A stretch of DNA of 40,250 nucleotides, taken from NCBI GenBank assembly GCA_902556355.1, contig CACDVW010000011.1, forward strand, positions 1-40,250. Direction: 5' to 3'. The notes below the pieces were generated by a model. The model was not told the DNA's origin. It saw nothing but the letters and a program-made list of their open reading frames with translations, and did no database searches. The stretch comes from an uncultured SAR86 cluster bacterium. GTDB taxonomy: Bacteria > Pseudomonadota > Gammaproteobacteria > Magnimaribacterales > D2472. Positions 22,205-22,688 of the stretch are shown piece by piece (within the stretch, counting starts at the first letter, position 1; each line of letters begins with the position of its first letter). Both the position numbers and the translations under genes were made by a program.

Positions 22205-22318
22205 ATGGATAAAGATGCGGGGTATGAAATATCAGAACAAATGCCTTATGAAGAATATCAAGAAAAATTAAAACAATATTGCCTCAATAAATTTCCAGAA
22301 AAGCTTATACCACTTTAA
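22205..22318 (+). CDS. Small ORF, 37 aa, possibly a C-terminal gene remnant
   Basis: ATG at 22205 opens 37 codons rich in charged residues (DKDAGYEISEQMPYEEYQEK..., ending KFPEKLIPL), and the stop adjoins a strong terminator hairpin. The charged, Pro-containing sequence looks like real protein. There is no ribosome-binding site, and the frame is open upstream only to 22181. It overlaps sequence that, on the other strand, would continue the SnoaL-like frame. It may be the end of a deleted gene. I do not recognise it. Confidence 0.35.
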   Translation: MDKDAGYEISEQMPYEEYQEKLKQYCLNKFPEKLIPL

Positions 22319-22347
22319 AAAAAAGAGAGCATTTTGCTCTCTTTTTC
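22317..22347. terminator. Bidirectional rho-independent terminator
   Basis: The 11-bp stem AAAAGAGAGCA / TGCTCTCTTTT with a TTT loop is A-rich on one side and T-rich on the other. It ends the plus-strand 37-codon ORF, and also the minus-strand riboswitch-controlled gene, whose stop is at 22363. Confidence 0.92.
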
Positions 22348-22362
22348 GTTAATTGAAAAACC

Positions 22363-22527
22363 TTACAAATAGTAAGGAAAGAATACATCCTTTTTAGGTT
22401 TAGACTTATGCTCAGTTTTATTTTGCATGCGTAAATTGTAATTAAGCTTGTTAATTGCGATTTGCAACATGACATTGTTTCCTAACTTAGGTGTATATTG
22501 TTTTTTTTGAATGTTTAAAGCATTCAT
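22363..22527 (-). CDS. 54-aa basic protein under tandem glutamine-riboswitch control
   Basis: This gene is absent from the ORF track. ATG at 22527 follows AAAAAGGAGA with a 5-nt spacer and opens 54 codons (MNALNIQKKQYTPKL ... KPKKDVFFPYYL). It has nine Lys, one Arg and only two acidic residues, so it is strongly basic. There is no signal peptide, Cys or membrane segment; a central amphipathic stretch (VMLQIAINKLNYNLRMQN) could be helical, with a disordered Lys-rich tail and a hydrophobic-aromatic end. Two glutamine aptamers precede it. In cyanobacteria, riboswitches of this type control small basic inhibitors of glutamine synthetase (GifB) or PII-binding peptides (PirA). A similar role here is an inference from context; I do not recognise the sequence itself. 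Confidence 0.85.
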   Translation of the reverse strand: MNALNIQKKQYTPKLGNNVMLQIAINKLNYNLRMQNKTEHKSKPKKDVFFPYYL

Positions 22528-22529
22528 AA

Positions 22530-22550
22530 CATCTCCTTTTTAAAAAGATG
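22530..22550 (-). promoter_or_regulatory. Shine-Dalgarno-sequestering hairpin (putative expression platform)
   Basis: The RNA CAUCUUUUU-AAA-AAGGAGAUG can form nine contiguous pairs (two G-U) that completely bury the GGAG Shine-Dalgarno of the 54-aa gene. Its 5' arm begins directly at the 3' end of aptamer 2, sharing the terminal CAUC. This is the expected position for a translational switch. Whether ligand opens or closes it cannot be told from sequence alone. Confidence 0.6.
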
Positions 22551-22599
22551 CGTTCCTTCGGTATCATTACCTACTTCCGTCTCTTGCGAGATGAACGAT
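22548..22599 (-). ncRNA. Glutamine riboswitch aptamer 2 (glnA / Downstream-peptide type)
   Basis: Read on the minus strand: closing stem CGUUC/GAACG (22597-22593 with 22555-22551), hairpin CUC-GCAA-GAG, conserved strand GACGGAAGUAGG, hairpin GGUA-AUGA-UACC, then CCGAAGGAACGC. This is the three-way-junction layout and conserved core of the glutamine-binding glnA and Downstream-peptide RNAs. It lies immediately upstream of the Shine-Dalgarno hairpin. Confidence 0.88.
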
Positions 22600-22603
22600 G
22601 ATA

Positions 22604-22653
22604 ATGCGTTCCTTCATCTTGCGACTACTTCCGTCCCCTTAAGGATGAACGAT
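22604..22653 (-). ncRNA. Glutamine riboswitch aptamer 1 (glnA / Downstream-peptide type)
   Basis: The 5'-proximal copy has the same closing stem CGUUC/GAACG (22651-22647 with 22611-22607) and the same conserved strands ACGGAAGUAG and GAAGGAACGC. Its two hairpins differ in sequence (CCUUAAGG-type; UC-GCAA-GA) yet still pair, which is covariation between the copies. A 4-nt linker separates it from aptamer 2. The predicted transcription start falls at its first base. Confidence 0.87.
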
Positions 22654-22659
22654 TTAAAA

Positions 22660-22688
22660 ATATTAACAGAGAAAAAATATATATACAA
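22660..22688 (-). promoter_or_regulatory. Sigma70-like promoter of the riboswitch transcript
   Basis: On the minus strand TTGTAT (22688-22683) and TAATAT (22665-22660) are separated by exactly 17 nt. A start about 7 nt downstream would fall near 22653, the first base of aptamer 1. The surrounding AT-rich tract would favour melting. Confidence 0.75.

Follow-up and report, generated by a model that had tools for sequence, protein, structure and literature searches.

The window, a stretch of 40,250 nt, belongs to an uncultured SAR86 bacterium of the Gammaproteobacteria. On its minus strand two adjacent structured RNA units are followed by a small ORF and a terminator-like hairpin (Table 1); an SDR gene comes next. 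Both units passed the gathering cut-off (35 bits) of the type-1 glutamine riboswitch (glnA) model RF01739 of Rfam 15, and no third copy was detected in the genome of this organism with the same model. The earlier note had described two adjacent units with shared strands, a CGUUC/GAACG closing stem and a core matching both the glnA and the Downstream-peptide RNAs. The shared strands and the closing stem were present as claimed, and the significant glnA match of each unit removed one of the conditions that would have refuted the proposal. The Downstream-peptide assignment had to be given up: the RF01704 model matched neither unit, with no match in the window at the gathering score nor at E-values up to 1.

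Table 1. Positions of the features of the tandem riboswitch locus within the window
Feature	Positions	Strand	Basis
Possible promoter TTGTAT-N17-TAATAT	22660..22688	(-)	Sequence and similarity among g1 relatives; inference
Aptamer 1 (5'), type-1 glutamine riboswitch	22603..22653	(-)	RF01739, 59.9 bits, E 6.5e-11
Linker after P1 of aptamer 1 (CAUUAUCAU), proposed coupling helix	22598..22606	(-)	Ligand-free MFE and covariation
Aptamer 2 (3'), type-1 glutamine riboswitch	22547..22599	(-)	RF01739, 61.9 bits, E 1.8e-11
Hairpin CAUCUUUUU-AAA-AAGGAGAUG with Shine-Dalgarno AAGGAG (22533-22538)	22530..22550	(-)	Fold
54-aa basic small protein MNALNI...KKDVFFPYYL	22363..22527	(-)	ORF, homologues, dN/dS, pI
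Intrinsic terminator hairpin and U-tract, 3' of small ORF	22317..22346	(-)	Sequence and fold

Covariance-model alignments and stem counts revealed the architecture of RF01739 in both units, a P1/P2/P3 three-way junction with the conserved CGGAAGUA and GAAGGAACGC. As the earlier note had stated, the P2 and P3 hairpins differ in sequence between the two copies while pairing is kept. Among unique aptamers of the SAR86 order, the basal 3 bp were fully paired in 106 of 106 for P2 (5 triplet types) and in 104 of 106 for P3 (17 triplet types). The aptamers occupy a 5' UTR position, the small ORF starting ∼20 nt past aptamer 2 (transcript ends are unmapped). The earlier note had not picked out this ORF as the gene under control, nor had it seen that the locus belongs to a set spread across the order. 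The evidence supports a tandem type-1 glutamine riboswitch in a gammaproteobacterial genome; there are no data on selective binding of L-glutamine.

The locus had also been credited with its own promoter and terminator. The terminator was upheld: in a fold of positions 22310-22370 a 13-bp hairpin (-15.9 kcal/mol) with a U-tract follows the small ORF, although the pattern scanner did not flag this hairpin and marked only another, weaker stem. The promoter was not, since matches in a promoter pattern scan were no more frequent than expected by chance. The putative element listed in Table 1 would place the start of transcription near aptamer 1, a possibility read from sequence.

The 54-codon ORF very likely encodes a real protein, because pairwise dN/dS was 0.03-0.19 among seven copies of its own genus, indicating strong purifying selection. 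The product has a pI of 10.1 and its C-terminal FFPYYL is invariant among copies. AlphaFold2 (mean pLDDT 71.6) predicted helices at residues 3-11 and 15-41, with low confidence for the C-terminal tail; the model was considered too small for fold searching to be useful. In a profile search, 11 of the 107 genomes of the family proved to carry a homologue; 7 of these genomes belong to the own genus, and all 11 loci have the tandem directly upstream of the gene, with aptamer 1 kept in each. The profile was built from riboswitch-linked copies; the informative part is therefore that no homologue lacking an upstream tandem was found in the 107 family genomes. No related family was detected in Pfam, NCBIfam or PHROG, and no relation to solved structures was detectable.

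A 2018 review placed this riboswitch class only in cyanobacteria and marine metagenomes (PMC6316151), a distribution that would fit an assembly contaminated by cyanobacterial or phage DNA. The nearest records with the same locus, however, were SAR86 genomes, several of them from single cells and one named Gamma proteobacterium SCGC AAA168-P09, and it recurs, in a chromosomal context and with the same neighbours, in many independent SAR86 genomes. Contamination can be virtually dismissed: the SAR86 relatives rule out that the contig is cyanobacterial or phage DNA, and the SAR86-type gammaproteobacterial host proposed in the earlier note was confirmed.

Type-1 glutamine aptamers were also observed ahead of tiny ORFs, mostly of 28-65 aa, in at least 120 IMG/VR viral stretches (L150-L269). 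Most members of one viral small-protein family (MTKYQ..RAVKKSL..NPFYP), which is similar to a SAR86 g14 peptide, follow tandem aptamers.

The cassette in the window could accordingly be phage-derived, a moron encoding a small protein that was of use to the phage, kept by drift or recent transfer without a role in nitrogen control of the host. The same aptamer and Shine-Dalgarno hairpin do lead tiny ORFs in most of those viral stretches, and the g14 resemblance points the same way. The peptide of the window, however, was not found in viral contigs and has no detectable homology to the phage family; moreover, purifying selection acts on it, and in 8 of 10 related loci the peptide gene also has near it the SDR gene that comes next in the window. 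We consider a phage moron improbable.

Directly 3' of P1 of aptamer 2 a hairpin holds the Shine-Dalgarno sequence in its 3' arm. The full 5-bp arm was kept in 82 of 107 unique SAR86 and viral leaders, when 42.0 (sd 3.3, maximum 52) were expected from 1000 rounds of re-dealt 5' arms. Arm forms include CATCT/AGATG, CACCT/GGGTG, CACTT/AAGTG and CAATC/GATTG, and the hairpin is conserved across 22 distinct SAR86 forms. These results establish covariation of the hairpin; relatedness between the sequences was not removed in this or the other re-dealing test.

The base after P1, which is the first base of the 5' arm of the hairpin, was C in 105 of 106 SAR86 aptamers. The solved structure of the aptamer shows G23 inserted into P1, where ligand-mediated interactions pair it with C60 (PMC11477058); C60 is, by our reading, the base after P1. 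Folding without that C weakened the hairpin from -5.1 to -2.5 kcal/mol, a cost of ∼2.6 kcal/mol. By secondary-structure energies alone, the Shine-Dalgarno sequence was still ∼90% paired with the C held out. Since it is predicted to be mostly hidden even then, an ON sign is only inferred. We infer an ON switch in part by analogy with the cyanobacterial type 1 and type 2 glutamine riboswitches tested, in which glutamine activates (PMC6316151); a glutamine response of the window tandem has not been shown. The presence of GS, gltB, gltD and DUF4278 genes behind the same aptamer was counted in favour of the overall model set out below.

The opposite sign has to be weighed. Bound P1 might stack on the Shine-Dalgarno hairpin and hold it shut, so that only a shortage of glutamine would allow synthesis of the small protein. 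P1 and hairpin are adjacent with compatible secondary structures, the hairpin forming with the aptamer folded, and SAR86 glutamine synthetase and porin genes, for which repression by glutamine is expected, lie behind the same aptamer. Against this, the bound fold and the hairpin exclude each other because both need the C after P1 (PMC11477058), and the cyanobacterial examples tested are ON switches (PMC6316151). The GS, TonB and g3 porin leaders, in addition, carry a different tail (GTTAAAC..GTTTAAC), therefore their sign need not apply to the window tandem. An OFF switch appears rather unlikely to us.

In the ligand-free MFE structure, the first 7 nt of the linker between the aptamers (CAUUAUC) pair with GGUAAUG, the 5' strand of P3 of aptamer 2. 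Across 27 distinct short-linker tandem leaders, the linker-P3 helix counted from that C had a mean length of 5.15 bp. When linkers were re-dealt 2000 times the mean was 3.97 bp (sd 0.23), and no round (0/2000) was as good as the observed value. The control pairings P3a (1.81) and P2b (1.26) gave no such linker signal. The reversed-P3b control was somewhat elevated (31/2000) because P3b is partly palindromic. Compensatory changes were observed in L166 (CAUUGUU/GGCAAUG) and L200 (UAUUAUC/GGUAAUA), whereas the helix is missing from some tandem leaders (L191, L232 and the TonB leaders). The tandem leaders are related in sequence, therefore the re-dealing counts are not probabilities. A pairing of linker UAUCAU with the P3b loop AUGAUA was dropped, folds and covariation favouring CAUUAUC-GGUAAUG.

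Like that of the Shine-Dalgarno helix, the covariation of the linker-P3 helix is an observed property of SAR86 and marine phage leaders alike, and it stands against two independent, pseudo-cooperative aptamers with no coupling helix, of which aptamer 2 alone would touch the ribosome-binding site and aptamer 1 would be a near-neutral duplicate. So does the retention of aptamer 1 in every locus with the 54-aa protein. Independence can claim that glutamine doublets have been filed as pseudo-cooperative with multiple platforms (PMC9481103) and that many leaders have a single aptamer; we hold it to be doubtful, and cooperativity of the tandem is inferred.

We favour, with a probability of roughly 0.6, a device in which two type-1 aptamers in series, the Shine-Dalgarno hairpin and the coupling helix control translation of the small protein, with glutamine turning it ON. 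In the absence of glutamine, (i) the C after P1 of aptamer 2 would close the hairpin that hides the Shine-Dalgarno sequence; and (ii) the tail of aptamer 1 would pair with the 5' strand of P3 of aptamer 2, leaving aptamer 2 misfolded. Glutamine bound to aptamer 1 would recruit the C of that aptamer to the G23-C60 pair of the bound fold and free P3 of aptamer 2, making binding there possible. Glutamine bound to aptamer 2 would then withdraw the second C, weaken the Shine-Dalgarno hairpin and turn translation on. The small protein may signal glutamine excess to nitrogen assimilation, like cyanobacterial gifB/IF17; its target is a guess. If the device is real, the tandem offers a testable way for one riboswitch to gate the folding of the next.

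The glutamine aptamer is common in SAR86 and nearly absent from the other Pseudomonadota sampled. RF01739 was present in 50 of the 107 genomes of the family and, across the order, in 93 of 199. A class-wide sample gave 4 of 369 (the own genome, two more from its order, and another streamlined genome). In a phylum-wide sample of 388 the own genome alone carried it. Order loci behind the aptamer encode GlnII (24), TorF porin (18), a DUF4177-like protein (14), a circularly permuted ATP-grasp protein (9), TonB receptor (8), gltB (7) and DUF4278 (7), with type I GS (G109, G145) and several orphan small proteins as further targets. L026, which a loose pattern had filed under GlnII, was counted as DUF4177, and three loci are each listed under two handles (L001/L002, L096/L098 and L099/L100). 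Outside the order, G486 carries the aptamer on gltB and gltD.

Several further leaders were noted in this survey. The circularly permuted ATP-grasp genes (PF14403) follow a single aptamer in g8, g9 and one g1 genome (L012-L017, L020, L030, L031, L052; L015, inside that range, is a TonB locus). Some SAR86 small proteins of the DUF4278 type (with YRG repeats) follow an aptamer that has a large insertion in the P3 region (L063, L064) or only a weak model match (L095). The GS, TonB and g3 porin leaders (L003-L011, L033-L043, L101-L129) have in common a conserved tail, GTTAAAC..TCGAGTTTAAC..CTGCAG..ATGCA, which makes them a second type of expression platform. In L096 and L119 (G109, G145), type I GS lies behind the tandem leader found on GlnII in other f4 genomes, so the leader seems to persist when the enzyme behind it is exchanged.

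The only glutamine synthetase in the genome of the window is of the GlnII type, and an NtrB-like kinase is encoded after it. The genome retains that kinase together with GlnD and two PII proteins, therefore the riboswitch is not its only glutamine sensor. GlnE was absent from all 199 order genomes. GlnD (PF08335) was absent from 10 of 10 g3 genomes, from f4/g13 and from f3, and PII from 9 of 10 g3 genomes and from f4/g13; PII is present in most of f3. The lineages with a riboswitch on GS are g3 and g13. The genomes are incomplete, yet the pattern of sensor loss is consistent across each lineage. Sensor loss and the GS riboswitch coincide in two lineages only, therefore this is a correlation and no test of cause.

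We put forward as a tentative reading, for which the support falls short of an even chance, that an RNA glutamine-sensing network has replaced PII/GlnD in SAR86. Sensorless lineages would have put GS, porins and TonB receptors under riboswitches, and the others would use coupled tandems to drive small-protein nitrogen regulators, a design common to marine phages. If true, glutamine sensing by RNA has partly replaced PII/GlnD in a group of heterotrophs that is abundant in the ocean.

The aptamer class and its tandem forms are already known: 157 doublets and 4 triplets of glutamine riboswitches have been catalogued (PMC9481103; tandems also in PMC2864571), and the class has been reported in marine phages (PMC9004378). 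The 2018 review restricted the class to cyanobacteria, and there its associations with GS, PII and ammonium transporters came only from environmental sequences of uncultured strains (PMC6316151); gammaproteobacterial genomes now supply riboswitches on GS. A literature search that left out most subscription papers found no earlier report of glutamine riboswitches in SAR86 or Gammaproteobacteria, and in the literature searched we found no precedent for the SAR86 regulon, the sensor loss, the small protein or the coupling helix.

The window tandem resembles RF01739 type 1 in sequence, three-way junction, high score, known tandem forms and nitrogen-metabolism targets. It differs in its host, a gammaproteobacterial order, in its target, a new 54-aa protein, and in the covarying linker-P3 helix. 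RF01704 type 2 shares the very short downstream ORFs, but the window aptamers are type 1 and do not match its model. The cyanobacterial gifB (IF17) and DUF4278 genes under glutamine riboswitches likewise yield a basic small protein, and DUF4278 proteins also lie behind the aptamer in SAR86 relatives. The window protein, in contrast, has no detectable homology to DUF4278; the sequence homology expected of a GS inactivating factor (IF7/IF17, DUF4278) was not met in the Pfam, NCBIfam and PHROG searches, and no effect on glutamine synthetase has been shown. The marine-phage glutamine riboswitches of Melnitz and Mosig (PMC9004378) share the ligand class and likewise come from streamlined systems of marine heterotrophs, and viral leaders have the Shine-Dalgarno hairpin design in common with the window leader; those riboswitches lie in phage genomes (with a tmRNA and coactivator context in Melnitz), whereas the window is part of a bacterial chromosome.
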